This document shows, one piece after another, positions 29,808 to 54,231 of a DNA stretch of 54,231 bases (the stretch's first letter is position 1; every line of letters starts with the position of its first letter). The position numbers and the translations under genes were made by a program. The notes under the pieces were generated by a model. It worked only from the letters and a program-made list of their open reading frames with translations, did no database searches and was not told the DNA's origin. The DNA comes from Lojkania enalia. Taxonomy: Eukaryota > Ascomycota > Dothideomycetes > Pleosporales. The stretch is from NCBI GenBank assembly GCA_010094045.1, contig ML986834.1, positions 1-54,231 of the forward strand. Direction: 5' to 3'.

Positions 29808-30764
29808 TCACAAACACCAGAGCGTGTTGTTCATAGTTTTAGTCTTAATCCACTCTCGACACGCCTCTCCGACATCCCTGCCGATGGGCGAGGTAGCTAA
29901 GTCGTACCGCCAAATATTCATCGCTTTGCTTGCATCTGCAACTTTCCATCCGGTCGCCGGTATGTCTAGGACAGCCTCGTTCTCGGCATTGACAAGAAAT
30001 AAGTTCAACGATCGACCGCCGGGGAACTGCTCGAAGGCCTTGGTCTTGACACAAAACTCCTGAAGACCAATTGGTCTCACGAGCATAAGCATGTTGAGCG
30101 TCGGCATTTTCCCCACGTTCCTCCAAAACTCTTCGGAAAATTCCGCTCGGTACAGCGCCAGACGCTTCAGATTCGGCCACTGCCGCCACACGAAGGCTTT
30201 CTCCGAGTCTCTCGCAAGGTCGAGAAACAAATCATCCTGGACACTAACAAATTCCTCCAGTCTCTCAAGCTGCGCAAATCCGTCTCTTAGAATGCGCCGC
30301 ACATCAAGTCGATCCTCTTCCGCGCATAGACTCCGTAGCGGAATGTCGATCACCAGCTTTCTCAAGGTCGGAGAAGTATAAAGGAGAAGCTCCCGAGTCC
30401 ATAGCGCAACGGGAAGGTCGTCGATAGTCTCTTTAAATGGTGCTAAGTATAAAGAGGGAACTTTGCAGAGCTCGCTGCCTGGGGAGCAGGGGATGGAGAG
30501 GAGGATTGAACTAAGGTGTATGGAAGTGGAGATATAGATGCAATGCTCGCGGAGGTAGCGGCGAGCTAGCCGGTATGTCTCGAAGCAGACGAGCGTGAAA
30601 GAGAGAAGCATTTTGGTGATGGGGTTTGAGCGTGTGAGGAAGGAGCCGGGGTTGGGAAGGACGCAGGTGATAATGTGAAGGACGAGTTCAATGGGTAGAG
30701 GCATTGGTTGGACCTCCAGACCCTGATATTGGTGCTGAATCTGTTTCTGGGAAAGGGTTTCCAT
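29808..30764 (-). CDS. F-box-like domain protein
   Basis: A single-exon gene of 318 residues starting at the ATG at 30764 (the open frame extends three codons further up but without an ATG). Residues about 20-70 have the layout of a fungal F-box-like domain: PLPIELVLHII at the start, then LLSFTLVCFETYRLARRYL. The remainder alternates hydrophobic LRR-like stretches (LRKLVIDIPL, LKRLALYRAEF, LNMLMLVRPIG). F-box proteins normally recruit substrates to SCF ubiquitin ligases; many fungal ones of this type have no known target. It starts the normal-composition island and has no stop or frameshift. It is 1.6 kb from the dehydrogenase and on the same strand; membership of the metabolic cluster is not supported. 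Confidence is high that it is a gene and moderate for the domain. Confidence 0.7.
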   Translation of the reverse strand: METLSQKQIQHQYQGLEVQPMPLPIELVLHIITCVLPNPGSFLTRSNPITKMLLSFTLVCFETYRLARRYLREHCIYISTSIHLSSILLSIPCSPGSELCKVPSLYLAPFKETIDDLPVALWTRELLLYTSPTLRKLVIDIPLRSLCAEEDRLDVRRILRDGFAQLERLEEFVSVQDDLFLDLARDSEKAFVWRQWPNLKRLALYRAEFSEEFWRNVGKMPTLNMLMLVRPIGLQEFCVKTKAFEQFPGGRSLNLFLVNAENEAVLDIPATGWKVADASKAMNIWRYDLATSPIGRDVGEACREWIKTKTMNNTLWCL

Positions 30765-32377
30765 ATTTGGCAATTACCAGCCTTGCTAGCTGAAAGGATG
30801 AGTTTAAGATTTTCTGGATCATTTCTGACGAGATTTGGATATTACGCGGACCTCATATCCTCCTTGCCCAACCTCACATCGATAGATTCCTCCGGCTTGA
30901 TGACAATCGGACATAAAGAGTGCATTGCTGCACTCGAAAGCTATCGAATGCATGAGAACTGTCCATCTGCAACCATCCACGCCATTATCTCTGCCACGAC
31001 ATGCATGCATCATCCTCAGAATACCGCCGCCCGGTTTCCCTGCTTACTTATCCTTCAGGGGGCTCGGGCAGCAGAAACACGTGGTTGCAGATTAGCGTTG
31101 TTCTCACTTTTCCGCAGCTGCAGATGGCATATACTGGCGCTTTCCTACAGATCATGCAATATTGCAGCATGGTCAACATGTGATCATACCCTAGCTACAT
31201 GACCTTCAATGCGACCTCCCGTCAAGCTGCACAGTGATCTGATAATATGCGTGAGCTTACATCGAATTCGGGCGTGAGGATTTCGCCGTTTTGGAGTTCT
31301 CTAAGCAATTACACGAGATTAAACCTGCAGCATATCTACAGCGGGAAGGTCGGAGGTAGCGGGGGAAGACTGCATGCACGTAGTACGAACACCCATGTCG
31401 GGAATCTCAATCAACTTCTTGCTGCAAGTAAGCATGTAAGCTAAACCCCACCACACCACAACCTAAACCGAAGAACGCCGCCGAATCGGGCTTAATCGTA
31501 CGACCGAGGATATCGAAAGATGCAAGAGTGGGGACAAGACCTAAGTTTTACACGGTGCCATTGAAATATTCCGCTTTGGCAGAGGTTTGGCAGGGCTTGT
31601 GCAGTTTCGCGTCACGTTAAGCAAGAGCTCCTAAGCCAATGAGATCATCTTACGAGGAACCTCCTTCATCTAGCGAAGGTCACTCGACCATCCATCTCCT
31701 TTTGTAATATAGTCATCTTGTGAACTGCCAACCTTCGCATGTACGTTGCATGCAGGATTTATCATCTGATCGTGACTCCGATGTCCATCATTTCATTCTG
31801 CAATATCTCAACGTACAATTACTACGAACGGCGGTTTCCGTTGTCGATGCGGGTGCTTTAGATTCAACGATATTGACGTGTCACGCAAAGCAAATGAGCA
31901 GAAAGTGGCGGTGAAAAGAGTTTCTAATAGCTTCCGAGATCAAGTCTTAGTTAGGGAATCAGCATTAGTCCGGAATTCCAAATATGTTCCTCCATGTCAA
32001 TTCCACGGAGTATTCTACATGGAGAGTCACAAATCCTTAGTCCGACTTGGAAAGCATTGCTTGAGCGTTGACCGAGGGTCTAGGTTCGCTATCGTGCCTG
32101 GCCAGGCTTCAACACCATGGCTAGGACAACTCGAAACTTCTCACCCAACCAATGCCGAGTGCACTCATTATGAAGACAACATGAGATTGTATTGTCGCCT
32201 TGTATACCTCTCTCTCTAGCATTGCACACCAGCTTTCACCAAATCATTTTCTGCCACAAGCAAAGGCGATTTCATCAACTTCATGTTCGACTATCTTTGG
32301 TTACTACTGCTCTACAGAGAAACATCGTATGCGTTGCGCAAAGCCACCTCCGCAGATAGACAGTCGACCCACTTTGC
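30765..32377. other. Intergenic region, no supported gene
   Basis: About 1.6 kb of ordinary composition. Several short open frames occur on the plus strand (for example 31720-31914 and 31878-32219), but none resembles a known protein, they overlap each other, and no intron joins them convincingly. The right end is the 3' flank of the dehydrogenase and the left end is the promoter region of the F-box-like gene. Confidence 0.6.
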
Positions 32378-33535
32378 TCAAGGGATGATTGTAGCCTTGA
32401 TGCACCTTTTCGTCCGCACAGCGTCAAGTGCATCGCCGAACTTCTCCAGAGGAAACGTATGCGTCACCACACCCCTCACGTCCACCTTCCTACTCTCCAA
32501 ATACTCCACCGCACGCGGTAAGCACCACATCTGAGAAAAGGACCCAAGGATCGTGATCTCATCGCGGAAGATCCTGCCAGGCGAAACCTCGATTATATCC
32601 TCCGGTGCATACGCACCATAGAACATCACCTTTCCTGTCTTAGTGCAAAAATCGATAGCTAAATTCAGCATTCTTGGATCGCCAGTCGCATCTACGACAT
32701 TGTCGAATCCATGAGGATACTTTGTTCGCAAATCAGCCCACTTCTGTCTGTTGACTTCTTCGTTGCTGCGGCCGAGCTCAAGATACTCGTCGGCAATTGC
32801 GAGTTTCTTTCCCAGACTCATCTTGTCACCTACGCGGGCGGCAACGACGAGCTTCTGAACGCCATTCAGCCTAAGCAGCTGTGCAAGACAGATGCTGGTC
32901 GGCCCAACACCGAGAAGTAAGGCCGTGGACCCTGGGCGAGGAAGCAGGCGGTCGAGGCCGTGAACAGCACATGCGGCGGCTTCAAACAGCGAAGCTTCTT
33001 CCCACGAGCAGACCGAGAAGTGAAATAGTTTGGCAGCAGGGAAAACGCAGTATTCTGCGAAACCGCCATTCACTGCGAAGTTTATTATGACCACGTGATC
33101 GCAGCTCCGACAAGAAAAGACTTACGGTGGACACCGTGAGCTACAAAATTCTCGCAGAATAGCAGCTTTCCTTCCCGGCAGAAATGGCAATGCCCACATA
33201 GCTCAGAGTTATCACCCGTAACTCTATCGCCGATGGTGAAGCCCGTGACGTTAGATCCAATGGCCACGACCTCGCCAGAGGTTTCGTGGCCAGTCACAAC
33301 GGGCATGCGGGACTCGAAGTCGCCGTCGTGGATGTGCAGGTCTGTGCCACATATTCCACAGGATTTCACTGCGAGACTTATTCATATGTGGCGATCGAGG
33401 TGGGAAAATAAGAAGATTACCTTTGATAAGGACTTCTTCGGGCTTGGGCGTGGGAACTGGAAGGCTAACAAGTTCGTAGTCTTTGATTTTGTTGTAGCGA
33501 ATCGCTTTCATTGTTTGGGGAATTTGATGAGACAT
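32378..33535 (-). CDS. Zinc-dependent medium-chain polyol dehydrogenase
   Basis: Three exons: 33421-33535, 33126-33368 and 32378-33072, with introns of 52 and 53 nt (GTAATC..GCAG and GTAAGT..GCAG), giving 350 residues, the usual length of the family. The start at 33535 (MSHQIPQ) precedes an alternative Met at residue 9. Catalytic zinc ligands are visible as Cys45 in CGICGTD, His66-Glu67 in GHE, and Glu150. The structural zinc is held by Cys96, Cys99, Cys102 and Cys110. The Rossmann motif is GVGPTS at 174-179. CGICGTDLHIHDG resembles arabinitol/sorbitol-type dehydrogenases, so an NAD(P)-linked oxidation or reduction of a polyol or cyclitol OH is likely. It diverges from the sugar phosphate cyclase over a 707 bp shared promoter. 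The cofactor and substrate are not determined by the sequence I can read. Confidence 0.88.
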
Positions 33536-34242
33536 GTTTGTTTCAATGTTTATACGAGCTGTCTCGAAAATGAAGTCGATGAAATGTAGATAGACAATGA
33601 AAAGAAGGATTTGCCTTTTCAAAAAGTCAATTATGGGCTTATATCAATATAGGACATCAATTGACTTGCGTAAAGTACAAGTTTGCCGAACCCAAGAAAT
33701 CTTTGGGTTATGCACACTCTCGTACTGAGTTTCATGTCCCAAGACAGGAAGCGGCCTAAGTTCGCCTCCTCTTCGGGGTTGACATCGGAGTAGACAGTTG
33801 ACCTCTCTCATGCGGGTAAGCTACAGCAATCTCACCTGTACAGACTCTATGCAGAGATACGATATACGCCCAGTGGACGGCAACCTCTATACCTTGTTGC
33901 ACATAAGAGCGGTGAAGCAAGTTGAAGCCTCTTTCCTTTTCCTTGATCGAGTGCATATGCACCCTGCGACATGATGATGATGCAGTATCATGGGTGCGAG
34001 TATCCACTGTATTCAGTTTGGCAGTATTTGCCAATTTTGTATCATCCCATCATCACTCCGGACATGGGTGCCAGTTCTCGCAACGGCACAAAGCAAACTT
34101 CAATATCTTCTTCAAGCCCCTTCCAACGGCAGAGTGCATACACAACCTTTGGAGTCGATACGAAGTCCAAAGTCTCAAAGTCAATCTCGCCCAACACAGC
34201 CCAACTCGTTCCCTTCATCACCTTCGTCTTAGTCTCACGACC
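33536..34242. promoter_or_regulatory. Shared divergent promoter: dehydrogenase / sugar phosphate cyclase
   Basis: 707 bp between the two start codons, with no supported gene inside. Two inverted repeats stand out: AACCCAA / TTGGGTT with a 7-base spacer (33689-33709), about 155 bp upstream of the dehydrogenase, and a perfect 12-base palindrome GTGCATATGCAC (33951-33962) containing a CATATG E-box, about 280 bp upstream of the cyclase. Either could be a transcription-factor site; neither is proven. Confidence 0.5.
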
Positions 34243-35578
34243 ATGGTCGCCGCCAACCAACCAACCATCACCGAGACCGTCGATGGCATAGCAGTCACAA
34301 CATGCATGCCCATCGCGCACGGCTACACTTTTGAATCAGATGTTTTCTCCACGAGCAGCAAAGCTATCGCGGACATGTACCGCGTCCAAGGCCGCTGTCT
34401 ATGTCTCGTAGATGCCAATGTCCACAAACTTCTAGACAGTAAGGTCGAAGACTACTTCAAGCATCACGGCATCCGGGCCATCGTCCGCCCCGTCGATGTC
34501 ACGGAAGAGCGCAAAGATCTCGAGAAGCTGTCTGAAATCTGTGAGATGTTTGTTGAATACGACTTGCTTCGGCGCGAACCTGTGCTTGTTGTTGGTGGGG
34601 GCCTGATGACTGATGTTCTGGGGTAAGATTCAATTAGCGTATTCTCGTAGTGTTGGTTCCTGACCTGGGGTTTAGGTTCGCATGCGCGGTCTTTCGCCGC
34701 GGAACGCCTTATATCCGCGTGCCAACCACCCTCATCGGCCTTATTGATGCATCCGTGTCGAATCGTGTCGCTGTAAATTGGAACGGACTCAAGAACCGTC
34801 TGGGCGGCTACCACGAGCCTGTACACACCGTCATTGATTACACGTTCCTCAAGTACCTGCCTGCGGCTGAAATACGCAACGGTCTTGCTGAGATCTTGAA
34901 GATTACCAGCTGTGTGGATTTGAAGACCTTTAGAGCGGTGCAGACCTATGGGTTGGATTTGATCGCGACGAAGTTCTTCCTCACGAATGGGTTCACGCAG
35001 GAGCAAGCGGCGTTGAGTAACGAGATTATCAGGGCCAGTGAGTGCATCTTTCCTTTACATATGCAAAAGCGACAAACGTTGCTAAATCCTGAGCAGCCAT
35101 CATCGATGTCCTTCGGGAGGAAGTTCCCAACTCTCGGGAGGCCAACCTTAACCGCGTCATGTTCTTTGGCCACACTTGGTCCCCTGTCCTTGAACTCGCA
35201 CCCAAGCCCGTCCTTCTCCACGGCCACGCCATTTCCGTCGACATGTGCTACTCTATCACCATCTCGCAAATTCTCGGACACATTGACGAAGAGCACGCAA
35301 ATGAGTTCCTCAAAGTCTTCTCCGATCTCGGACTTGCGCTGGACCATCCAGCTTTTACGGAGGAGCTGATGCTGAAGGCGACTGCGTCTACGATTGCGAC
35401 CCGTGATGGTAAGCTCCGTGCTCCGATTCCGACGGGGAAGTTCGGAGAGTATGAGATCCTGGCCAATGTGAGTGAGGATGTGCTGAGGAAAGCCTGGGCG
35501 CTACACAAGGAGAGGGTCAAGGGGTTCCCGCGTGAAGGACTAGGTATTGACCCGAACACCTCGGTTAGAGCTTGGTAG
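34243..35578 (+). CDS. Sugar phosphate cyclase, desmethyl-4-deoxygadusol synthase (DDGS)-like
   Basis: Three exons (34243-34622, 34676-35037, 35097-35578; introns 53 and 59 nt) encode 407 residues, the length of C7-cyclitol synthases. The ATG sits in CCATGG. The dehydroquinate-synthase fold is clear: VVGGGLMTDV at 116-125, RVPTTLIGLIDAS at 141-153, LKNRLGGYH at 165-173. Metal ligands are Glu199 (NGLAE), His273 and His289. GHTWSP (272-277) and LHGHA (288-292) are the DDGS forms; dehydroquinate synthase has a second His where this has Pro, and valiolone synthases have HGEA. These enzymes close sedoheptulose 7-phosphate to a C7 cyclitol using NAD. Residue 157 is Arg (SNRVAVN) where the family has a phosphate-site Lys. 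It is convergent with the phosphatase (226 bp between stops). Family sure; exact product not. Confidence 0.9.
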
Positions 35579-35804
35579 ACGTGCATGGATAATTAATGAA
35601 GCGGAAATGGGTGCGGTATTGGCAGGCCAGCGTTCAGGATAAAACTAAGAAAACAACGAGAGGGCTTAGACTAATGCCTTTTCTTATCTAGAATGCACTT
35701 TTCATTCCTCTAGACCCATTGGTGTCATTGTAACTGTTAGTGAATCAATATGTGCGTCACCATCAATTCGGGAACATGCCCATGTTGAATAGTCCAATGG
35801 ATGC

Positions 35805-36930
35805 CTATACATCCCGTCTCAAATCTCCCGACTCAAGCGACTTGAGTTCTGACAAGACATGTGGATCTTGCTCCGGGAGCGAAGCACCCCTCAATTCCCG
35901 GCTCCAGGGTGTCTCAACAATATGCGCTTCCTGCTCTGTAGAGGTGGGCGTGAACTCAAACAGACGGACCTCACAGTTCAGATAGGCAGTCCCTTGCGAA
36001 GGTGTCAGATTTCTTCATCAACGTGTGACCGCGCTCTCTGGTGATTTGAAATAGAGATAAGAGTGAAGTGCTTACCTCTGACGGGATCATCCCCAGTCCA
36101 GTCCTCGGTCAGATAGTGCAGAAATGCTCCGTGGGTGACGAGAAGAATCTGCAGTTCAATGATCAGCATGTAGTTAAGGGGTCATCCCCTGCATCGTACT
36201 AGCTCCGCAAAGACGCCAGCCAGCGTAGCAGATACAATAGGCAAATGCTGATGGATCCTGCTGCTCCAACAATAGCTCTGCCCCCATGGCAAGATGCAGT
36301 AGAGGGTGATCAGAGGGACCTTGCACTCACATGAGCTTCAGCACGCTGGAAAAGCCAGCTTCTCAGGTCTGCCGCACGTTGTGTGACCTTCGATTTGTAG
36401 GGAGCCCAGTAACCGCTCTATCACATACGTGTCAATGGTCGATGCTACACCACACCGAAATCACAACATGCCTTGCTATTCCAGCCCTCTTCGACAGCAT
36501 CGAAGTTGATCTTGCTCAGATCAAACTGCAGAGTCTCGCCAGCAAAGAGCTCAGGGAGCTTTTCGTTGAGCTCCTGCTTCGAATGGCCGATGTCGCAGGT
36601 GAGACCGCTCACTTCTTGGGCCTTTGGGATGACTAGATAGGGTACGTCCTGGCGAGACAGCGCCGGGCCGAAGCTGAGCACTGTGGTCTGTATCGCCCGA
36701 CGGAGAGGCGACGATAAGACGAGGTCGATGGTGTCATGGTAGGCGAATGATTCTTGGAGTTGCCGACACTGGGTTTTGCCGTTCTCGGTCAGGGTAGCAT
36801 CCATGATGTGGACAGCGTTCTGGCTGCGTCAGCTTCTCCCATGTTAGCGATCAAGGACAAGATCAAACACTCTCACATTGACATTATGTTGGCCTTCGGC
36901 GTGTCGAACCAGATAGAGGAGTGGAGGCAT
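35805..36930 (-). CDS. Histidine phosphatase (phosphoglycerate mutase-like)
   Basis: Five exons by my reading: 36877-36930, 36472-36819, 36331-36417, 36076-36148 and 35805-35992, giving 249 residues. The histidine phosphatase core is complete: RHAEGQHN (catalytic His10), SSPLRRAIQT with Arg58/59, acid Glu87, and VTHGAF with the second His169. The C-terminal GTAYLNCEVRLFEF matches fungal members of the family. The border at 36471 needs a GC-AG intron (36418-36471, 54 nt); a GT donor further in would add residues. The intron 36149-36330 is long at 182 nt. Such enzymes remove phosphate from small sugar phosphates; here it lies between a cyclase that uses a sugar phosphate and a P450, so dephosphorylation of a pathway intermediate is a reasonable inference. 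Confidence 0.8.
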
Positions 36931-37650
36931 TGTGCAAGATGCGGATTGCCGGATGTGTACGGATGTAGGAGGGGCGAAGGAACGAACCCTACGTTGTGGG
37001 CCTTTGTCCTCGGTTGGCAGCGTTCGATGTCTTACAAGTGTGCCACGACATATGCAGTCATCAACCATAACGGCTGCAACCCGCCACAACATACTGTACT
37101 AGGAAATCACATTAAGCTTTGCGGGAACCCCCACGCCAGTGAATAGCTAACGGGAGCTAGCAAGGGCCAGCGTTCGCATTTATTGAACCATGGCTTTCGA
37201 AGCAGGCGCCTCTAGTGAGCGAACAGGACCTGATATCAAGCCCAGAGCGAAAGCCGTGAGCATGCTTCCGACATGACACTTCCACTGTCCTCACCCATTG
37301 TAGGGAGCTGACTTTTGGCAGCCGGCAAAGTTGCCATATCCGACGTTCGGTGCAAGCATGTTGAGGAGACTTGACATTGGAAGGTAAGCCGAGGCCGCCC
37401 CCCCGTGCTAGAGCGGTCGGACCATGCGCACCTCAGCCTTCAACCGAAAACCTTATGCGGCCTGCACGCACACATTGAGCCCCAGGACCTTGGCAGTAAT
37501 TACGGATGCTTGTAACATCCGAAACTCGGGCCTCACTAGTACGAACATGGGATTTTGAGAATGGCAACAAAACAGGATATTAATTCGCATTATCTTTGAC
37601 CTGCACTACCCGCCAAGTACAGGAAGTAAGAGATTAATATTGCTAGGCAT
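36931..37650. promoter_or_regulatory. Spacer between phosphatase start and P450 end, with a CGG-type inverted repeat
   Basis: About 720 bp with no supported gene. At 37503-37521 is CGGATG, seven bases, CATCCG: perfect 6 bp arms beginning with CGG and ending with CCG, the form bound by fungal Zn2Cys6 activators. It lies about 570 bp upstream of the phosphatase start. Function is inferred. Confidence 0.4.
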
Positions 37651-39279
37651 TTACGCCACTTCCCTCTGCCAGAGCTTGAGCGGCAATTTGAGCGGCCACA
37701 GATTGAAATATTCGTCAAATTCCAGCTCCCAGTTTAGATCAGGCAGCGCGAATTCGTACCGCTTGACTAGGGTAGCTAAGAAGACTGTTTGCACTACGAT
37801 CGTGATGTTCCTGCCAATACATGCCCTGGTGCCAAGGCTGAATGGGATGAACACAGCACGCATATCCTTGAGTTTATCTTCGCCTCTGATGAGCCATCTC
37901 TCCGGCCGGAATGCCTCTGGGTCTTCAAATATGTCCGGATCGCGATGCGCGGAGTACGCCGAGATTGAGACCGTCGTGTTTCCAGGCACCATCTCAGTGT
38001 CGACTTTGAGGCCTTCGGGCGGCGTCTTGCGAAGAAGATCCGTAGCCACGGGTGGTGACAGTCGCATGGACTCATCGATGCACGCCTTGAGATACTCAAG
38101 GTTCCGGACTTTAGACCAAGGAGCAATACGATCGGAAGGACTGAGCGCATTATCAATCTCCTCGCGCAGCCTGGTAAGAGTGGCGGGATTTTTCACGAGA
38201 TAATACAGTGTACTGCAAAGGGAGATGGCGGGACCATCCCCACCACCGTTGACTAGGAATTATTAGTTCTGCATCTGGAACGGAGCGCCAAGTTGAAAAG
38301 AAGTCGACGTACTCATTTGGTCAGCTTCGGCGATCCGGTCCTGATCACGGATGTCTGGCTCTTCGCCTCTCCTGCCGGTCATCATTGGTTGAAACAGATC
38401 ATCCAGAACTTCACCATTCTTGAACCTTTCCATTCGCTCTCGGGTAATATTAGAGACTGCCTTTCTCCAGTCGGCAGCTTGTTGCAAATGCTCGGCGTAT
38501 TTCTTCGACAGTCTCTTGGCTATACTCTGATACAGCGAGAACCTCTCCGTGTCCCAGACTAAAACTGCTGCTGCCCTCGACCCAGCATGGAGACAGTGCA
38601 CAGCACTAATTTTCTTGGTTGTTCCATCAGCGTTAGTGATCTCAATCAAATCGTTGCCCATTTCGACCCATCGCATATCTTTGCTCATCCCTATCTTGAT
38701 GATCACTTCAAACGTGAAGAGGTTACTCCAGTGCATCGCTTCAAAATTGAGCTCGTTTGGGTCCACATCTTGGCCAGCCTCTAGTGGAGTTGTGCAACGT
38801 CGGTCCATCTGTGTCAGCAGGTGAGTCATAGACTCTGCGATACTCATCTCCCACTTCTCGCTGTGACGAGGAGCGTAGGCGGCGGCAACCATGCGGCGGC
38901 GTGCCGAATGCTTGCTCTTGTCACTGATATTGACGAGGTGCCTGCCACCGCCCGAGAGGGCGTCGTATATCGCCGCTTTCGAGCAGGATGAGGCATAGCC
39001 GTAGATGTCTTTGGCTGCTTGTGCTTTGCCGAATGAAAGCCAGTCCGGACCAACTCGCATGACAGGATGCTTCCCGTGAGCATCGTGAAGCCGACGGGAG
39101 TGAATGTATTTATGACTTCGTGCAATCTCCCAACAGTACCCGAGATATGAAATTCCGGACATCCAATTCTGGGTTGGGTATTTGCGAAAGCCTTTTGGAT
39201 CTCGAAAATAGTGGAATATGGATGGTAATGCAATGAAGAGCGCTGCAAAAGCTAGCAGTGGAGCAAGAAGCTCGATCAT
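37651..39279 (-). CDS. Cytochrome P450 monooxygenase
   Basis: Two exons, 38313-39279 and 37651-38252, with a 60 nt intron (GTACGT..TAG), encode 522 residues. An N-terminal membrane anchor (about residues 4-24) points to the ER. ExxR is E383-S-M-R386, the PERF-type motif is FRPERW (437-442), and the heme loop is FSLGTRACIG with the iron-binding Cys467. The I-helix, which the intron interrupts, reads NGGGDGP (324-330): the usual Thr of (A/G)GxDT is replaced by Gly, then Pro. It needs a P450 reductase encoded elsewhere. It diverges from the sugar transporter. The substrate is unknown; within the cluster it would hydroxylate or oxidise the cyclitol or a conjugate. Confidence 0.9.
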
Positions 39280-40029
39280 GGTTGAGAGTAGTGGTAGAGG
39301 TGGAACTATTCGAATTACAGGAAGTACAAAGATAACTTCAGAAGGTTGAACTTATGCCGGGCGAACTATTTGAGCACCCCACAACTCGGGGTTCTTGATA
39401 TAACCGTCATGTTGTTATAATCGAATAGTGAGAACGGCCGGGGTCGCTTAGAATCTGCTACATTGTATAGCAGGCCAGGGGGTCTTCGGAATTCTAAGGT
39501 GAACATGTCAAGCGTGAACCCGATGACAGGCAGATGTCTGTGCGTCAACAGCGACATTTTCGCCTGTCAGAAGCGTTTCCAGCTACAGGTCCACATTAGA
39601 TTTTCAAACAACCCCACCTTTTTTCCTTTTTTTCTCCTGCCTTAAGTGCGGTACGGTTGCTGTCGGTATTAGGATTGATTTGACAACAATATCGCTGGTC
39701 AGGCATCGGACCGGGACTACTGTCTCTTGCCAAACCTAGACATTCCTTAGGTGGGTTCATAGTGAGCCTGCGAGAATGATTGCACGGAGTGAAATGTACT
39801 TGAACGACAACGCGTCAGCAGACCCACCACTCAACCACCGCCGCGGTTCATCGTATTAGGCCCGTGCTCAATCCTTTGTCGGCTTCTTGCCTTGGGCGGA
39901 TGCTGATAGTGCGGCAATACCGCACGGATCACAAACGTCTGATAAATTCCAGCGAGGTCATGTTTGCACCAGGCGAAACCAAAGAATCCAATCAACCCAC
40001 CTCTCTAATCGTCAAACCTCGACTTCGAT
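39280..40029. promoter_or_regulatory. Shared divergent promoter: P450 / sugar transporter
   Basis: 750 bp between start codons, no gene. A pyrimidine run (39615-39645) lies nearer the transporter. CGG-containing sites are present (CGGTACGG near 39650, ATCGGACCGGG near 39705) but none forms a convincing long palindrome. Confidence 0.4.
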
Positions 40030-41690
40030 ATGCGCGCGCTCTCCGACTTTAGATGGCCCTCGCAGTATATTTTTTCGAGCATCCTCTGCTCCGTTGGCGG
40101 ACTCCTCTTCGGGTGGGTCTTCAATCCGAGATGCAAGCCATGACAGCTAATGAGTTGCATAGCATGGACACTTCGATCATCGGCCCTGTCACAGTCATGG
40201 ATAGGTACATCGCTGACTTTGGCACCGCCTCTGCTACCGTTCATGGGCTTATCATTTCCTCAATATTGATCCCTGCTGCCATCTCATCCTTCTTTGCAGG
40301 CCGAGTGGCCGATGCCGTCGGGCGTCCGAAGGGCATCAGTATTGGCGGTCTCATCTTCGGCATTGGTGCGGCGCTGGAATCAGGTGCTGTACATCTGGCC
40401 ATGTTCGTCGTGGGTAGAGTGATCGAAGGCATCGGGGAGGGCATATTCCTGGGCAATTTGGTTGTGTAAGTTGAATTCGACACCTAAGTGCATCGGTCAA
40501 GTAGCCATCTAACCCCTTAAAGTTACATTTGCGAGATTGCACCACCTCGCCGGCGGGGACCTCTGACATCCGGTCCTCAGCTGCTGAATACTGTCGGTCT
40601 TGTTGTTGGCTTCTTCACTTGCTATGGCTCACGTAACATGGACTCGTCACTCGCATGGCGCCTTCCGTTTGCGCTTCTCGCTGCACTTTCGTTCTTATTT
40701 GCAGCAGCCTCACTGGTTTGGCTTCCCGAGTCTCCAAGATGGCTCCTTCTTCGCCGTCGGGAGGCCGAGGCATCCAGAGCGTGGGATGTCCTCGGAGTAA
40801 GGAGCGCGGATCGAGAGAAGGCCGATCAGGGAGACGAGCGTGCAGTTACAGTCGCCGCCAACTCAACCGACTCAGCCGACCACCTTAGCCCAACAGTTAT
40901 CCCACCTTCTGTGCCGATTAAGGAGAAGTCTAGCTTGCTGGATGCGTTCGCCCCGGATGTTCGCGCTCGCACTATGCTTGGTGTCTTTGTTTTGGGCATG
41001 CAGCAGATGAGCGGCATAGATGGAATCCTCTATGTAAGTTCACCAGCATCATGAATCGGATGGAAGCTTATCACTCTACAGTATGCTCCGTTACTCTTCG
41101 AACGAGCAGGGCTCACCTCTTCCAGTGTCTCTTTCCTAGCGTCAGGTGTATCCGCGATCGTCATTTTTAGTGTCACCATCCCAGCGCTCATCTGGGCCGA
41201 CAAATGGGGTCGCCGTCAGAGTACCATCTGCGGCGGGCTGGGACTGAGCGCCATCATGTTTTTGATGGGCGGCCTCTACGCAGGCAACGCGGTCCACGAC
41301 AGCTATGGGGCCGGCCGATGGGTCATCATCGTTTCGATCTATCTCTTCGCGGTTGTCTTCTGCATCTCTTGGGCAGTCGGCATCAAAATCTACGTTGCCG
41401 AAAGCCAACCGCAGCGTACGCGTGCAAGCGCAACCAGTCTGGCCCATGGGAGCAATTGGATCACCAATTTTCTAGTTGCCCTCACGACACCGATTCTTCT
41501 CGATCGCAGCAGCTACGGCGCGTACTTCCTCTTTGGTGGTTGCACTCTGCTCACCGCCGTGGTGTGCCTGATTTGGATGCCGGAGACCAAGGGCAAATCA
41601 TTGGATGAGATTGAAGTGGCATTCACCCGTAAAGCACCCGGAACGAGGACCTTGTTCATGTCTGCTCGAAGTTTGTTTAAAGGGCGTTGA
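40030..41690 (+). CDS. MFS sugar/polyol transporter
   Basis: Four exons: 40030-40112, 40163-40465, 40523-41033 and 41082-41690 (introns 50, 57 and 48 nt), 501 residues. The first exon starts at the ATG at 40030, has an in-frame stop upstream, and supplies the first half of membrane helix 1; the intron joins GGLLFG to MDTSIIGPVT, restoring the family signature. A start at 40053 in another frame would miss this. Sugar porter motifs: GRVADAVGRPKG (74-84 region), GRVIEGIGEG (112-121), PESPRW (197-202), QQMSGIDG before helix 7, and PETKGKSLDEIE near the C-terminus. Twelve helices are expected at the plasma membrane. It may import a sugar or export a cyclitol; direction cannot be read from sequence. 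Confidence 0.9.
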
Positions 41691-43595: not shown

Positions 43596-46305
43596 CATTG
43601 GACCCTTTAAGAGCTCATAGCATCCGCATCAGTCGAGTTCTTCTCTTAAGAGGGGATATCTCTTGGCAATAAACAATCGTTAGAGCAATTAGTGCAGAAG
43701 ATAACAGGAATCGCCGTTGAGGCTCTTTGAGGAGGTCCCTTGTCCGAGTTCAGCAAGGACGAGCGATTGTTATGGGCAGCAAAGCGCGAAACAACACGCG
43801 AGGAAGACAAGGCATATTGTTTGCTAGGCATTTTCAACATATATATACCTTTTATATATGGTCAAAGGCAGGAGAGTGCATTAGCCTGGCTTGAGGAACA
43901 ATTCGAAAAGACTTCGAAAGACAAGGCACTGTCGCTAGACAACGACCAAAGGCGGGTACTGTTGGACTCATTACAATTTGACCAAATGAATACACGCCAG
44001 ATAACCATCAAAAACGCTCACGCTAAGTCATGTAGATGGCTATTGACAAAGCTAGAGTACATCAACTGGCTCGATACCACCAAACTATGCGAACACCACG
44101 GCTTCTGGTGGATCAAAGGGATGCCTGGAACCGGAAAATCTACCTTAATGAGATTTGCTCTTGCTAATGCGAGGAAATTAATGAGGGATAGGACTATTAT
44201 CTCCTTATTCTTTAACGCACGAGGTGAGGACATAGAGAAGTCTACAATTGGGACTTATCAGTCACTGCTTCTGCAACTCGAACGGCATCCTACTCTCCAG
44301 TGCGTTTTTGACTCAGCCGGTCTCTCATCGTCGAGTATCAGACCAGATCATGAATGGGCTATCGAATCACTCAAGTCGCTGTTGGAGCAAGCTATACAAA
44401 ACCTTGGGCAATCTTCTATAGTCTGTTTCATTAACGCCCTAGATGAATGCGAAGAAGAGCAGGTCTGAGATATGATACAGTTCTTTAAACGCGTTGGCGA
44501 GTTCTTGGTATTAGCCGGTATCAGATTCCAAGTTTGTTTTTCGAGCCGACACTACCCCCACATCACAACCCAGAAAGGTCTAAGTTTAGTGCTAGAAGGG
44601 TAAGAAGAACAGCCAGGATATTACTAGCGGGCTAAAGATCAGGAATAGCAAAATTGCGCAGCAGATCCGAATTGAACTTCAAGGAAAGGCATCAGGAGTC
44701 TTTATATGGGTAGTTCTCGTTGTAGGCATCCTAAACAAAGAGCATGACCGTAGTCGGACCCATGCACTTCGGCGAAGACTCTAGGAGGTTCCTGGAGACC
44801 TCTATAAACTATTTCAGGATATCTTGACGCGGGACTCGCACAACAGAGACGAACTAGCACTATGTATCCAATAGGTGCTTTTTGCGAAGCAGCTATTAAG
44901 TCCAGAGCAGTTATACTTCGCTATTCTTTCTGGGGTTGAGCCTAAAGCAGTATCAAAGTGGGATCATGACGAGGTTACCAAAGATGCGATCGAGCTATTC
45001 ATACTCGATTCGAAAGGCTTAGCCGAGATAACAACATCCAGGAAACAGACAGTCCAGTTCATTCACCAGTCAGTAAGGGACTTTCTCCTAAAAGAAGATC
45101 GTCTGGGCAACGTCTGGCCTGACCTTAGAAGCAATCTCTACAGCCAAAGCCACGACCAGCTAAAGAAATGCTGCCTCGTCTACTTGAGTATGGATGTTTT
45201 CACTCTTCTCAAGATCCCTACAAAAGTTCCAAAGACTTCATCACAGCCGGCCGCAGACCTACGCAAGTCCGCTAATCATATGTTTCCTTTTCTAGGATAT
45301 GTTGTACAGAAAGTTTTGCACCATGCAGATTTAGCAGGAAGTGGTATTGCTCAGAGCAGTTTTATCCTAAGCTTTCTACGGCCTTCCTGTATCAAGCTAG
45401 CAAACTTATTCGAGAGGCATCAAGTATGTAGGTACACAGAAGAAATGAGCCTATTGCATGTGTTAGGGGAACGTAACATGCCTGCTCTTATTGGAGCCGA
45501 CCCATCCGCTGCCTCCTGTCTTGAGGTCGGAAACGAACGTTATGGACCCCCTCTCCTCGCAGCCTCGGCAATTGGAAGCGAGCAGGCTCTCCAAGCATTT
45601 GTAAATGCTCTCTCTAAGGAAAGCCTTCCTGGAAGTTACCTTCATAACATCCAGGCCCATAATTACGAGGATAGAGTGTATCCAAAACTTGGGCACAATT
45701 TCCAATTCTCGAATTGCAGGAGCATACTCTCTTATTTGGCGGAGCTTGGAAATGAGGTAACAGTTAAGCTGCTGCTTAGCACGGGCAAGGTCGACTTCGA
45801 CGCAAAGATCAGTACGTGGCGACAGACGCCGCTCTTGCGAGCAGCAGCGAACGGAAACGAGGCAGTAGTCAAACTACTGCTTAGCATAGGCAAGGTCGAC
45901 GTCGAGGGGAAGAGCGGTTCGTTGCGACAGACGCTGCTCTGGTGTGCAGCAGCGAACGGATATGAGGCAGTAGTCAAGCTACTGCTTAGTACGGGTAAGG
46001 TCAACGTTGATATAAAGGATAGTACGTGGCGACAGACGCCGCTCTCGCGAGCAGCAGCGAACGGACATGAGGCAGTAATCAAGCTACTACTTAGTAGAGG
46101 TAAGGTTCATATTAAAGCAAAGGATAGTACGTCGCGACGGACGCCACTCTGGCGGGCAGCAGCGAATGGACACGAGGCGGTAGTGAAGCTACTACTTAAC
46201 ACAGGCAAGGTTGACGTTAACGCGAAGGATAAGGATAGACGGACGCCGCTCTGGGAGGCAGCGGCGAACGGACACGAGGCGGTAGTCAACCTGCTACGAA
46301 CATAA
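43596..46305 (+). pseudogene. HET-NACHT-ankyrin NLR-like gene, broken by RIP-type stops and a frameshift
   Basis: The gene reads through a degraded HET-domain end (WTL*ELIASASVEFF; stops 43608, 43647, 43728), the linker LSEFSKDERLLWAAKRETTREEDKAYCLLGIF split here by no stop, NACHT with Walker A GMPGTGKST near 44127-44153, Walker B reading FINALDEC (Asp to Asn), then a stop at 44466, a stop at 44601, a frame change near 44610, and stops at 44782 and 44872. From 44875 it is open to 46305: the winged-helix region with IHQSVRDFLL, then ankyrin repeats to the end. The stops are CGA, CAG/CAA or TGG codons mutated C to T or G to A. Much of the HET domain is missing at the 5' end. Family role: fungal non-self recognition and programmed cell death. 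This copy should be dead unless the 3' frame is expressed alone. Confidence 0.85.
45733..46302 (+). repeat. Near-identical ankyrin repeats, 105 bp unit
   Basis: One partial, four full and one truncated ankyrin unit. The arginine codon of the (W/L/S)R(Q/R)T motif falls at 45820, 45925, 46030, 46135 and 46237, so units are 105, 105, 105 and 102 bp (35, 35, 35, 34 residues). The core AAANGxEAVVKLLL is nearly invariant in protein and close to it in DNA. The last unit stops after VVNLLRT, inside a repeat. Confidence 0.9.
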
Positions 46306-47808: not shown

Positions 47809-49335
47809 ACGTCGTTTACAAGCGAGCTGCGCACCTCGTCAACGTTCTGCGACGCGTTACCTACAAACTATAATGGCTCAACCAACTTCTACTCAATTAC
47901 CCTATAAAGAAGTATATATCTCCCTTGCTATTCTAGCTATCAATTCTACACAGATTACTAGCGGCCGGCGCGCTGCAGCAATATTTAACGTCCCTGAAAG
48001 TACGCTACGCAGCCGGCGCGCTGGCGTGCACCCTCGACGCGATTGCCAGCCTAAATAGAAGAATCTTACTAAGCTCGAAGAGGAGGTGATTGTTATGTAT
48101 ATACTTGACCTAGATTCGCGAGGCTTTGCGCCTACTCTAGGTGCTGAACGAGATATGGCGAATAAGCTGCTCACTGAGCGCAGTGCAGGCCACGTTAGCT
48201 AGTAGTAGCCTAGGAACTTTGTTAAGTAAACAGACAGACATACTACGCGATATAATTGACCCTACGATTAACAGCGAGCTCTATATAAGGATCCTAAGGC
48301 TATAAGCGCCTGGTTTGAGCTTGTAGCGCGTACGAAGGCCACCTATAGTATCTATAATAAGGATACCTTCAACTTTAACGAGACTGGCTTCCTAATAGGT
48401 AAGATATCCTTATAGCTAGTTGTTACAGGCTTAGAGAGATGTAGCCGGCTAACAGCGATCTAGCCAGGCAATTGCGAGTAGGTAACGGCAATCTATAGAA
48501 TTAATACTACTAGGTAGGTAATCCTGCCCTTTATTATCTTTACTAGCTAGTACTATCTCTTTACCTAGTACGAGGGCGACGATATACTAGGTAATTAGGC
48601 TATCAGTCTTAGCGATAATAGCTGGACTATAAATAAGCTTAGTATTATCTAGCTACAGCACTTTATTAAGTATATAGCAGAGCGTAGGGTAGGCGCGTGT
48701 TAGCTACTTATCCTTAACAGCTATAAGAGCTACAATTCGCTCGAATTTTAGGAGATCTATAAGGAGAATAAGATATATATTCTCTATATACCGCTACATT
48801 CGTTATACCTCTTATAACTACTAGATATTAGCTACTTCTTACTATTAAAGCGGGCGTACGGGCGCTAGGTCGAGAGCCTAATATATAACTATATTAACTA
48901 TATCACTAATCTTCAGTTCCTACCAACCTTCTATATTACCTATAACTAGTTTATTATAAAGGAGAATATCTGCATAAGCTTTTAAGGCGCTAGTCTAGTT
49001 CTATATTATCTAAAGATAGTAATCTTAAAGTTTAATATAAAGCTCTATATACTATTACTAGTATCTCTACTAAAAACTATATAGGAAGTTAAAATACTAA
49101 GTAATATATATAAACTAGAAGTTTAATTAATATTAATTCGCGATTAGATTCGCGTATATAAAAACTTATTATCTACTTCTATTATTAAAAGGCTTAATTA
49201 GCTAGAAAGAGGCTTTTTTAAAGTAATATATTAGATAGTTATTAGGGATATTTCTAATAGAACCCCTATACTAGACCCTATCGAGATCTAGGACTCTATA
49301 TAGTTAGCGGAATAGAATCGGTATAGAATATATAA
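47809..49335 (+). mobile_element. Fourth pogo/Fot element, 5' part moderately preserved
   Basis: The left terminal repeat begins ACGTCGTTTACAAGCGAGC at 47809 after a TA. The transposase starts at ATG 47873 (MAQPTSTQLPYKE) and is open to 48058, with a helix-turn-helix region (GRRAAAIFNVPESTLRSRRAG). It then continues through stops: EEEVIVMYILDLDSRGFAP, a NFNETGF-like block near 48373, LILNSYKSYN-like near 48710 where the family has LDGHxSH. TA-content rises along the element. I cannot find its right terminal repeat; it ends near the hairpin at 49340. Confidence 0.75.
47873..48058 (+). pseudogene. pogo transposase N-terminus
   Basis: A 61-residue open start of the transposase of the element at 47809. 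The HTH_psq-like region binds the terminal repeats in intact elements. The first stop replaces what is probably a Ser/Trp or Gln codon right after the RRDCQPK segment, and the frame goes on downstream. The base composition is less biased than the rest of the element. Confidence 0.65.
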
Positions 49336-49339
49336 CGTA

Positions 49340-49403
49340 CTTAGTTACTTAATTAACTAAACAATTAAGTACGTTTAGCTATTTAGTTAACTAAGCAACT
49401 AAG
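49340..49403. repeat. Imperfect hairpin at a transposon junction
   Basis: Arms at 49340-49361 and 49382-49403 (CTTAGTTACTTAATTAACTA and its near complement CTTAGTTGCTTAGTTAACTA read in reverse) with a 20-base spacer. It lies between the end of the pogo transposase and a Gypsy-type gag relic. Confidence 0.55.
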
Positions 49404-50312
49404 TAGGAAAAATAGTAGAGGAACTAAATTATATTTAATAACCTTATAGCTCTAACCTTTATAACTCTTTATAGTTAACTTAAATATCTTTTATATACTC
49501 TTAATTATTATTCTATTCTATATCTAGCTAATTAGAGGCTGTTATACTTTAACTACCCTCGTAAGATTAGAAGAAGTAAGACTAGTTAAACTACCCTAGT
49601 TATAAAGAAAGAGATACTTTTAGTAAGTAACGTAGGAAACTTACGCAAGTAGAATATTGGGATTAGCTAGTAAAACTACCTCTTTAGAGGTAGGTATAAT
49701 AACTATATTTATAAGAATATAGAATAAGTTAGTATAATAAAGAAACTAGCTAGCTTTAGTAGACAGATAGATTAGAAGCTTAAAGGAGGCTTAAAATAGC
49801 CTTCTTAAAAGTCTTAAAAGAATATAAGAAATAGTTAATAGTAAATAAGGAATAGAACTTATAGAGATTATTTTAAAGCTTAAATAGGTCGAAAAAAATA
49901 CTATAAATAATATATTATTAGCAATAAATTAAGTTAGTACTATTTAATAAGTTTAATAGAACTAGGCCTAAATTTAAAAGATTCCTAGTAGTAGTAAAAA
50001 TTTATATTAATACTAATCTAGATATTATCTAGTATAGGAATAAGAAAGTATTATTTATAGAAGTATACTTAATAGGTAAATAACTCGATTAGTTCTAATC
50101 TTTTCTAATAGACTTTAAGAACTACGTAGAAGAATACTAGAAAAGTAAAACTAAGGTAATATTTATAAGTCTAGTATATTTCTAATAGAAACTTAAACTA
50201 GTATTTAGAAATATTAATAAAGTATAAGTAGTAGAAAATAGACTCTATAATCTAGTTGAACTAGAATTTATTATCTTATATATATTAAGCTTTTAATAGC
50301 TCTTAAATAAGA
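49404..50312 (+). pseudogene. Gypsy-type gag relic
   Basis: On the plus strand from about 49930 the translation contains FNRTRPKFKRFLVVVKIYIN, then VLFIEVYLIGK and a region like LVFRNIN, the order seen in Gypsy gag/retrotransposon-gag domains (FDG.R..LK.FL..V..Y, V.FV.SYL.G.A..W, L...FGD). Many stops. It is cut at about 50312, where a pogo-like terminal sequence (AACGTAGTTTATAAGCGAGC) appears. Confidence 0.55.
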
Positions 50313-50789
50313 TTAACGTAGTTTATAAGCGAGCTATTAGTATAAGTATTATAGTAACACCGTAATACCTCTGTACCTATACTACCCCTACTATAATACT
50401 CGAACTAGCTGCTAGTAATAGCTATCAGCTACTAGCTAGAATATAACCGACTTGTTATAACTATAATAGAGGAAGGTTTCGCCGATCCGGCTAGCCTATA
50501 TAATAGTATAGACCTAGCTCCTATAAAAACCTATATAATATAAATATCTCTATTCTTTATATAATATTTTAATATTTATACGTAGTATATAGTAATAGAG
50601 TTAACTGCTTAAAGTATAATTAACCAACTATATATAAGCGTCCGTAATATTATATTATATAATCTACTATTATATACTATAGACGAGAACGCGCTTATTA
50701 ATATACTTAAAGAGATCTAAGGTAAACTAGACTCTTTATAGTAGAAGAATAAAATACTAGTAGAGGCTTTAGTTACCTAAGAAAACTGC
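50313..50789 (+). repeat. Retroelement 5' end, inverted copy of 25645-26090
   Basis: Leader and gag start (GAGGAAGGTTTCGCCGATCC near 50470 gives EEGFADP) of a retroelement family also present on the opposite strand at 25645-26090. It is interrupted at 50790 by the LTR of the Gypsy family described at 1985. Confidence 0.5.
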
Positions 50790-52867
50790 TATAACGATAC
50801 AAAGAAATCGTTCTATAAAAAGCTTTATATACAACCTTATCCTAAAGCTTTTTACTTATCTTATCCTACCCCCAGCTCTACCCCTTTTCCCTTCCGTATA
50901 TAGTTGTATACTTCCTTATAAGTAGCTTAGTAGTTCTTCTATATCCTTTCGTATAAGGCTTATAGGTGTTAATAGAATTCCTAGGTCCCTAAACCCCTAC
51001 GCACTCCTATATACCTTTAAGTAGATTTGTACCGTATTCGGACCTATTATCTTACCTATACTATTATATTATATAGAAGAATTTAATACTACTAGTAATA
51101 GCTTCTTTAATAATATTATATCGATTGTTTATTTAATTACGTCTAAGTCTAAAATACACCTAATTTAGTTTAGATTATAATACTTATATACTATTATATT
51201 AAATTATTTAGTTACCTAAATAGAATCTTAGAGACCTTCTATTAATTAAAGTTTTTAGGTTTAGAACTTTCTATCCTCTATAATTAGAATTGCCTTTAGA
51301 AAAGCCGCGTAGAGTATGCCTAGGTAGAAACTTAGAAACTACTAATAACCTATTAGAATTAGAGGTAACCGCTAATATCTAATTATAATTTACCTTCTAA
51401 TTCCTATACTAGAACTAATACACGCATAAGTTGTAGTAAAAGTAAGCTTCTATCTACACGTGTAGAACAACTGTTACCTTCTATAAGAGGCCCTATAATA
51501 GGCAGACCCCTCTCTATAGGACCTATAATAAAAAACCTATCTAATTTAGAGGGAAATTAGAATAAACTAACCCTTAAAGAATAAATTGCAATTTTATAAG
51601 AGGAGATCGTATACTTAATATAATAAAGAACTATTAGTCTTAATTAACCTTTATAAACTACTAAATTAGAACTAATAATATATTAAGAAACTTTTATAAC
51701 TCCCCTAGTAAGAAACCTCTTAGCTACCTCTAAGCCCCCTTAAACCTACCTTACTAAACATACGCCTAAGATTAAAAACCTTATAGATAGTAGTAAACCT
51801 ATATTTAAATAATAGCAAGCCTTAATTCTAGACTAACTTAAGATTAATATAGATTACTATTAGATAGAGTATATACGTATAGCATTAATATAGAGATATA
51901 CCTCTAGTACTATAAAAGGGTATCTAGAACTAAAATACCTAGCTAAATTAGACTAGTATTAGTTTAAGAAAAGATCTAAATACTTAGGATTATATTATTA
52001 GTATTAAATAGTTATATTATTTTTAACTCCAGCTAGATACAGATAAGAATTAGATTATATAGTCTTCTAAATATCCTACTACTTATAATTCTTCACCTCC
52101 TCTTCTTATATAATTAACTCAGCTAGTACGCGATAAGAAGGTAAAGCTAGATATCTAGTAACGCGACGCTCTATAGGAAAAGAACTAGTATTAGTAGTTC
52201 TATAGTCCAACTATCTACTATATTAAAGGTTTACTAAAACTGCTAAAATTATATTAGTTTCTTATAATTTATAGTTTAAATAAGCTCGGAGCTCTTATAT
52301 ACCTATATATAATAAAGTCTAAACCTAATCCAAAGAAAGTCTATTCTTCTATTATTACTCTTATCTTAGCTAATACTTTCTACTTTAATATAAAGAGAAA
52401 AGAGAACGAGTTTTTCTCTATATCTCTATATGAAATCGAGCGGCTGATTAAAGATAAGTAAGCCCTAGAGCTGGAAGATAAGGCTAAAAATAAAGTACTA
52501 GTAAATCTCTAATTACTATCTAAATACTATAAATATTAGAATATATTTAGTAAAACTGTAGCTTATTAATTACTAGAATACTACTCTTATAATTATAAGA
52601 TTATCCTTATAGAATCCCTCTCTAATAGTTACTATAATAATATAAAGAAATCGTTCTACGAAAAGCTTTATCTTTTTACTTATCTTATTCTACCCCCGGT
52701 TCTATCCCTTTTCCCATCCGTATATAGTTATATACTCCCTTATAAGTAGCTTAGTAGTTCTTCTATATCCTTTCGTATAAGGCCTATAGGTGTTAATAGA
52801 ATTCCTAGGTCCCTAAACCCCTACATACTCCTATATACCTCTAAATAGATTCATACCATATTTAGAC
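50790..52867 (+). mobile_element. Internally deleted copy of the 1985-9149 Gypsy family
   Basis: LTR at 50790-51043 (254 bp), gag start to about 51985, then a jump: the sequence equivalent to roughly 7980-6960 of the first element is missing. It resumes with the protease-side linker and stops just before the reverse transcriptase (equivalent to about 6300). A second LTR follows at 52633-52867, shortened by about 20 bp. It cannot encode pol. Confidence 0.75.
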
Positions 52868-54231
52868 CTATTATCTTACCTGCGCTGTTATATTATATAG
52901 AAGAACTTAATACTACTAGTAATAGCCTCTTTAATAATATCGCATCGATTATTTATTTAACTATATCTAAGTTTAAGATATACCTAATTTAGTTTAGATT
53001 ATAATACTTATATACTATTATATTAAATTATTTAGTTACTTAGATAGAATCTTAAAAACCTTCTATTAACTAAAGCCTTTAGGTTTAGAACTTCCTATCT
53101 CCTATAATTAGGATTGCCTTTAGAAAAGCTGTATAGAGTACGCCTAGGTAAAAACTTAGAGACTACTAATAACCTATTAGAATTAGAGGTAACCGCTAAT
53201 ATCTAACTATAATTTACCTTCTAATTTCTATGCTAGAATTAATATACGCGTAAGTTATAGTAAGAGTAAACTTCTATTTACGCGTGTAGAACAACTGTTA
53301 CTTCTTATAGGGGGCCCTATAACAGGCGGACCCCTCTCTATAGGGCTGGTAGTAAAGAACCTATCTAATTTAGAGGAAAATTAGAGTAAACTAACCCTTA
53401 AGGAATAAATCGCAATTTTATAAGAGGAGATTACACGCTTAATACGATAGAGAACTATTAGTCCTAATTAACCTCTATAAACTACTAAATTAGCACCGAT
53501 AATATATTAAAAAACTTTTATAACTCCCCTAGTAAGAAACCTCTTAGCTACCCCTAAACCCCCTTAAACCTACCTTACTAAATATACGCCTAAGATTAAA
53601 AGCTTTATAGATAGTAATAAACCTATATTTAAATAATAGTAAGCCTTAATCCTAGACCAATTTAAGATTAATATAAATTACTATTAGATAGAGCGTATAT
53701 ATATAGTGTTAGTATAGAGATATACCTCTAGTACTACGAAAGGGTATCTAGAGCTAAAATACCTAGCTAAATTAGACTAGTATCAGTTTAAGAATGCTAA
53801 AGAAATGATTTTACTTCTACAATCGTATTTTATTATAGGTAATAAAGAGATAGAAGTATAATAAGCGTTTTAGGTTCTAAGGATGAATAAGAGAGAAGCA
53901 TTCCCAACTTTTAAAGCTCGCTTTATTAGTACAGCTATTAGGGGATCCGTATCCTAATTAGAGTAGTTCTTCTACCTATAGGATAAGATTTTCCCCAGCT
54001 TAAGGATACTAAACCTTAGCTTTAAGCTTATATAGAAAGGCTCCTTTAACGCTATAGTCGCCTACTTAACAGCCTATAATATAGAAAGGAGGAGTATTTC
54101 TAACCTCCTAGAATAAACTATTAGCCTATAGGTTACAGCTAAAATAAATTTAAATTAGTACTAGAAAGCTTCTAAAAGTTTATCTAAGATAATCTACAAT
54201 CTAATACTACCCTAATCTACCCTAGTATTAA
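52868..54231 (+). mobile_element. Further copy of the same Gypsy family, running off the window
   Basis: After the LTR at 52633-52867 the gag leader and gag start are repeated, almost parallel to 51044-51985, and continue past the deletion point of the previous copy (53790-54231 matches the complement of about 7990-7540). The right end is outside the window. It shares one LTR with the deleted copy. Confidence 0.75.

Follow-up and report, generated by a model that had tools for sequence, protein, structure and literature searches.

What does a sugar-phosphate cyclase of the desmethyl-4-deoxygadusol synthase (DDGS) family make when it sits in a small fungal gene cluster that holds neither the O-methyltransferase (OMT) nor the ATP-grasp enzyme of mycosporine biosynthesis? 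The question is raised by contig ML986834.1 of the pleosporalean ascomycete Lojkania enalia (assembly GCA_010094045.1, 58.1 Mb in 400 contigs; this one is C256 in our numbering). The window analysed here is this complete contig of 54,231 bp, and our reading stops at its ends. Five open, spliced and intron-containing genes occupy 9.3 kb of it (32378-41690; Table 1), in the order zinc polyol dehydrogenase, sugar-phosphate cyclase, histidine phosphatase, cytochrome P450 and major facilitator superfamily (MFS) sugar porter. Our best reading is that the cyclase would be a distinct subtype heading a non-mycosporine C7-cyclitol cluster. The fuller proposal, which takes functions from gene families, is that the compact cluster around this altered-site cyclase makes and exports a C7 cyclitol (carbasugar), predicted not to be a mycosporine; we regard it as evenly poised between right and wrong.

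Membership of the sugar-phosphate cyclase superfamily, with the fold of dehydroquinate synthase (DHQS), is established by the Pfam domains of the protein (DHQ_synthase and DHQS_C) and by a structure model of an ortholog. Among solved relatives, the best by sequence were Anabaena DDGS (5TPR, 324 bits) and ValA, a 2-epi-5-epi-valiolone synthase (EEVS; 4P53, 208 bits). A homolog search returned 3294 proteins, and among the best 120, which were listed, the closest came from Lindgomyces ingoldianus (92% identity), Massarina eburnea (87%) and, as a partial protein, Pyrenochaeta (85%), with three metagenome proteins and one from the lichen Brigantiaea at 54-56%, Xylaria scruposa at 53% and Trichoderma camerunense at 48%. 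A further metagenome protein (P0087; 56%, covering 69% of the query) was grouped with these, and the other 110 fell at 43-47%.

The active site sets this group apart. We aligned the window cyclase with all 120 listed proteins and with the cyclases of 80 bacterial loci, chosen as the 80 best among 333 relatives, giving 201 rows. The bacterial set is not a random sample, because it was retrieved with two peptide patterns, and one of these covers position 270, where it permits Ala, Phe or Tyr. At position 157, ten rows have Arg (the window cyclase, P0001-P0008 and P0087) and the other 191 have Lys; position 270 is Phe or Tyr in these ten and in P0009, and Ala in the remaining 190; Trp162 is restricted to the same 11 rows. 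Position 349 is Thr in 200 of the 201 rows, the window cyclase included. In alignments to proteins of the PDB, Lys157 is common to the solved DDGS, EEVS and DHQS, and position 270 reads Ala, Asp and Asn, respectively. Lys157 likewise occurs in six of six further sequences, namely five cyclases of a single actinobacterium and the AROM-type gene of the window genome, with Asn at 270 in four, Asp in one and Ala in one; from these same sites we would read the Asp270 and Ala270 proteins as EEVS and DDGS. D151, N167, E199, K202, H273 and H289 are invariant in two alignments. In DHQS, the residues corresponding to E199, H273 and H289 are metal ligands, and those corresponding to D151, N167 and K202 are catalytic.

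Bacterial EEVS and DDGS are separated by two of 14 fingerprint sites, according to PMC4426668. The window cyclase has F270 and T349 where ValA has Asp and His, and so lacks the EEVS signature; also lacking, on account of F270, is the Ala that DDGS carries three residues ahead of the metal-binding His of GHTWSP. We take the two sites to be D281 and H360 of ValA, in keeping with the aligned letters. Plain DDGS is disfavoured by the changed fingerprint site, EEVS by the difference at both sites and by the tree described below, and the DHQS of the shikimate pathway by the AROM-type gene, a separate match on contig C16.

In a tree of 52 rows, the 11-row variant clade formed a single branch (support 99/100) adjoining 17 fungal DDGS (93/100), and the EEVS-type row lay outside both. 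P0009 and two outgroup rows have long branches and are unsurely placed; P0083, a metagenome protein first grouped as fungal, fell among the bacteria. An AlphaFold2 model of the Lindgomyces cyclase, 92% identical to that of the window, was built from 26 sequences and reached a mean pLDDT of 87.1 and a pTM of 0.87. Its Foldseek matches included DDGS, EEVS, DHQS and 2-deoxy-scyllo-inosose synthase structures, with a query-normalised TM of 0.94 (39% identity) to 5TPR and of 0.83 to ValA. Model confidence drops, to block means of 56-71, at residues 151-170 and 261-280, the loops with the two clade-specific residues. The sequence-only reading had called the cyclase DDGS-like: its place in the DDGS family stands, its likeness to a plain DDGS does not, and the term understates the difference, given that the protein falls in a clade of its own in which two positions of the active site have changed.

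The same reading had found no mycosporine tailoring genes around the cyclase, and the wider genome bears this out. Whole-genome searches with a cyanobacterial OMT probe and with an ATP-grasp probe gave no match on the window contig at E <= 0.01, either within the cluster or just outside it, where the contig ends limit the view. Elsewhere, the OMT probe met only two distant genes, both on other contigs (28% and 32%), and the single genome match of the ATP-grasp probe, at C27:298137-298760, contains five stops. A canonical fungal DDGS probe matched the window gene, the AROM-type gene and pieces at C27:301932-302509, which retain residues 5-82 and 300-416 only, with the middle gone and four stops in the first piece. 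A search of the genome with family PF01761 gave two matches and missed this DDGS remnant, which lacks its central part; the protein search found it. Of the 80 bacterial loci, 61 have an OMT-like protein immediately after DDGS. When these 61 served as probes, five matched C27 at about 300.07-300.60 kb on the minus strand, each with an E value between 3e-4 and 0.01, and the matched stretch contains in-frame stops; the single cyanobacterial OMT probe detected no OMT remnant on C27. Since 61 probes were used, the case for an OMT remnant depends on its position between the DDGS and ATP-grasp remnants no less than on its score.

Judged from these matches, we regard C27 at about 298.0-302.6 kb (our loci L098 and L099) as the remnant of a canonical mycosporine cluster, in which DDGS and ATP-grasp are clear and OMT is weak. 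The three pieces follow the layout DDGS(+)/OMT(-)/ATP-grasp(-) reported for Phaffia in PMC10057719. As the DDGS and ATP-grasp remnants are clear, the canonical route appears to be broken in this assembly, whereas the gene of the variant cyclase remains open. We reject completion of a mycosporine cluster from elsewhere in this genome, only broken remnants or distant OMT relatives having been found. Massarina eburnea has both cyclase types, the variant (P0002) and a canonical one (P0037), and by keeping both it indicates that the two are not interchangeable copies.

These results bear on the alternative that the enzyme is a fast-evolving DDGS whose product is still desmethyl-4-deoxygadusol, destined for a compound of the mycosporine or gadusol type, with tailoring enzymes encoded at other places in the genome or with the adjacent dehydrogenase and P450 taking that part. 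Its position on the DDGS side of the tree, the better match to solved DDGS than to EEVS and the DDGS-like T349 all speak for this. However, the clade has Phe or Tyr at a site where all 190 other rows have Ala, the only ATP-grasp match in the assembly is stop-ridden, OMT is represented by distant relatives and a weak, broken remnant, and Massarina has a canonical DDGS as well as the variant. We consider this alternative unlikely.

Under the preferred reading of a distinct subtype, the substrate of the cyclase would be sedoheptulose 7-phosphate: bound NAD would oxidise it, phosphate would be lost at the metal and ring closure would follow. With its pocket altered (Lys to Arg, Ala/Asp to Phe/Tyr), the enzyme would yield something different from desmethyl-4-deoxygadusol. 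A ring position may then be reduced or oxidised by the dehydrogenase and a phosphorylated intermediate freed by the phosphatase; the P450 may add a hydroxyl group or an epoxide to the ring, and the sugar porter may export the product. An aromatic side chain at the fingerprint site speaks against desmethyl-4-deoxygadusol, as the lack of OMT and ATP-grasp does against a mycosporine. A bolder proposal, possible but on balance doubtful, is that the shared Lys to Arg change and the aromatic residue at the product-determining site mark a new catalytic class, forming a ring unlike dehydroquinate, 2-epi-5-epi-valiolone, desmethyl-4-deoxygadusol and deoxy-scyllo-inosose, and that it heads the first fungal gene cluster for carbasugars of the MK7607/pericosine type.

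Do the five genes belong together? Linkage in other fungi was examined for homologs of the cyclase, the dehydrogenase and the P450, and was read from equal sizes of the contigs carrying two proteins, which gives no distance along the contig; hits were clustered at 90%, which could conceal matches. Cyclase and dehydrogenase share a contig of 849,911 bp in Lindgomyces and of 386,103 bp in Xylaria scruposa, and cyclase and P450 one of 872,531 bp in Massarina. Linkage was thus seen in three of the ten other clade members, and three chance coincidences are unlikely because such contigs make up 0.7-1.5% of a genome, taking the 58 Mb of the window genome as a stand-in. Of the five-gene neighbourhood that the sequence-only reading proposed to seek in other fungi, pairs were recovered (cyclase/dehydrogenase in two species, cyclase/P450 in one) and the whole block was not. 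A dehydrogenase tree of 36 rows, made by a quick method, lacked the resolution to tell whether the genes of X. scruposa and Lojkania/Lindgomyces make up one cyclase-linked group. In Stachybotrys elegans, a P450 relative and a canonical DDGS (P0259 and P0044) lie on contigs that are both 2,138,361 bp, a match that may be due to chance.

Several observations weigh against a distinct cyclase at the head of a five-gene pathway. At the level of the enzyme, the second EEVS/DDGS site is as in DDGS, and Lys to Arg at 157 is a conservative change. At the level of the pathway, the cluster has no kinase to supply the phosphatase with its substrate. At the level of linkage, the comparison of cyclase, dehydrogenase and P450 revealed the five-gene block in no other species and no contig match in seven of the ten other clade members (five of them on contigs <12 kb and one a partial protein), and 13 named fungi have dehydrogenase relatives at 58-68% with no clade cyclase among the best 120 listed. 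Finally, the three upstream regions share no promoter k-mers above chance: seven 7-mers were observed against 5.5 expected, that many occurring in 36 of 100 simulations, and one 8-mer against 0.3 (25 of 100), with no 9-mers or 10-mers. As a separate, purely descriptive observation, CGG..CCG half-site pairs occur twice upstream of the phosphatase (36931-37640) and three times between the P450 and the transporter (39280-40029), with none in the dehydrogenase/cyclase promoter and none in three control stretches.

An alternative is a smaller unit, in which only the cyclase and the divergent dehydrogenase, perhaps with the P450, act together and the phosphatase and the transporter are chance neighbours on a small island. 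Linkage elsewhere in pairs only, the lack of a shared promoter motif and the existence of own-genome paralogs of the transporter and the phosphatase (53% and 44%) are in its favour. Yet the five families fit one pathway, and the genes are all packed into 9.3 kb of an island with no sign of repeat-induced point mutation, between heavily mutated flanks; we find this smaller unit improbable. That the cyclase chemistry is lost or changed, and that the cluster serves to break down or import a cyclitol rather than to make one, is very unlikely: the Lys of 191 of the 201 rows is Arg here, the pocket gains an aromatic residue, and polyol dehydrogenases and sugar porters are common in catabolism, but no member of the clade departs from the metal-binding and other catalytic residues, and the predicted fold, in the Lindgomyces model, is intact.

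The island itself is readily visible in base composition. The flanks of the contig (1-27 kb and 48 kb to the end) have 25-35% GC, TA/AT ratios of 1.6-2.1 and (CA+TG)/(AC+GT) ratios of 0.16-0.34, so that the AT-rich stretches 1-27000 and 48000-54231 carry a strong dinucleotide signature resembling that of repeat-induced point mutation (RIP). At 30-45 kb the corresponding values are 46-53%, 0.59-0.82 and 1.22-1.39, and the island that holds the cluster shows no RIP signature. Beside the cluster lies a 321-aa open reading frame (ORF) with no Pfam match (29808-30773, minus strand). At 43731-46305 on the plus strand are two ORFs with NPHP3_N (NACHT-like) and ankyrin-repeat domains and a gap between them, possibly pieces of a single gene.

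Table 1. Gene models of the cluster in the L. enalia window (positions on the contig)
Gene	Position	Strand	Exons	Length	Remark
Zinc-dependent polyol-type dehydrogenase	32378..33535	-	33511-33421, 33368-33126, 33072-32378	342 aa	single open model
Sugar-phosphate cyclase, variant clade	34243..35578	+	34243-34622, 34676-35037, 35097-35578	407 aa	R157, W162, F270
Histidine phosphatase (branch 1)	35805..36930	-	36930-36877, 36819-36472, 36417-36331, 36148-36076, 35992-35805	249 aa	chosen model
Cytochrome P450	37651..39279	-	39279-38313, 38252-37651	522 aa	single open model
MFS sugar porter	40030..41690	+	40030-40112, 40163-40465, 40523-41033, 41082-41690	501 aa	one of two open models

The five genes had been described from the sequence as intact members of these families, set in two divergent pairs with the phosphatase between; open spliced models and Pfam matches agree with this in families, coordinates, order and strands. 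The dehydrogenase (ADH_N and ADH_zinc_N) would be 350 aa if an upstream in-frame ATG at 33535 were used, which is the length of a public L. enalia protein that is 100% identical over its whole length; its NCBIfam scores, 183 bits for tdh and 162 bits for scyllo-inosose 3-dehydrogenase, are both far below the cut-offs, and its next relative in its own genome is 32% identical. The exons of the cyclase were placed manually on GT..AG sites. The least certain model is that of the phosphatase (His_Phos_1, 70.6 bits), for which 16 open models exist, each with one GC donor; its next own-genome relative, at 44%, is on C37. The P450 (p450, 191.5 bits) has relatives named CYP5280A1P or benzoate 4-monooxygenase, a public L. 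enalia protein identical at 100% over 93%, and a Massarina relative at 75%. The transporter matches Sugar_tr (301 bits) and, above its cut-off, the NCBIfam sugar porter family TIGR00879 (289.5 bits); a paralog 53% identical lies in the same genome at C21:242133-243542 (L118). None of the five genes was seen to encode a kinase, an epimerase or a nucleotidyltransferase.

What determines which product a sugar-phosphate cyclase forms is actively debated, and since the clade is a natural variant at a site that distinguishes subfamilies, it can be addressed directly by assay and by point change. In the literature searched, outside which most subscription papers lie, we found no description of the variant clade or of a fungal carbasugar gene cluster, and nothing on cyclophellitol biosynthesis, on Lojkania enalia or on valiolone with Asp281/His360; a 2017 survey of C7-cyclitol synthases may mention the clade. 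As compounds, fungal C7 carbasugars are well established, and the five-gene cluster offers a concrete candidate for their genes. The genome also documents a lineage that kept a sister cyclase intact as its canonical mycosporine genes fell into decay.

Pericosine A is chlorinated, and no halogenase is among the five genes. The likeness to fungal C7 carbasugars, the pericosines of Periconia byssoides and MK7607 of Curvularia eragrostidis, is one of compound class, oxygenated C7 cyclohexenes from fungi, with no gene link; the review describing them asks how pericosines C and E, mixtures of enantiomers, are formed biologically (PMC2635666). Vertebrates make gadusol from sedoheptulose 7-phosphate by a two-gene route of cyclase and oxidase (EEVS and MT-Ox), as described in PMC4426668; the window cluster differs in cyclase subtype and tailoring enzymes and has no methyltransferase. 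A precedent for cyclase, dehydrogenase and phosphatase in one pathway is acarbose biosynthesis, where the cyclase works with cyclitol dehydrogenases and a phosphatase and a kinase supplies the phosphate, the kinase being without counterpart here (PMC9200736). In the Phaffia rhodozyma DDGS-OMT-ATPG cluster, a DDGS-family cyclase likewise heads a small fungal cluster, with OMT and ATP-grasp in place of the dehydrogenase, phosphatase, P450 and porter found here, and with Ala before GHTWSP (...RVIASGHTWSP...) in place of Phe (PMC10057719). The closest solved relative, Anabaena DDGS (5TPR), shares T349 with the window cyclase, which has R157 for Lys, F270 for Ala and W162 for His.

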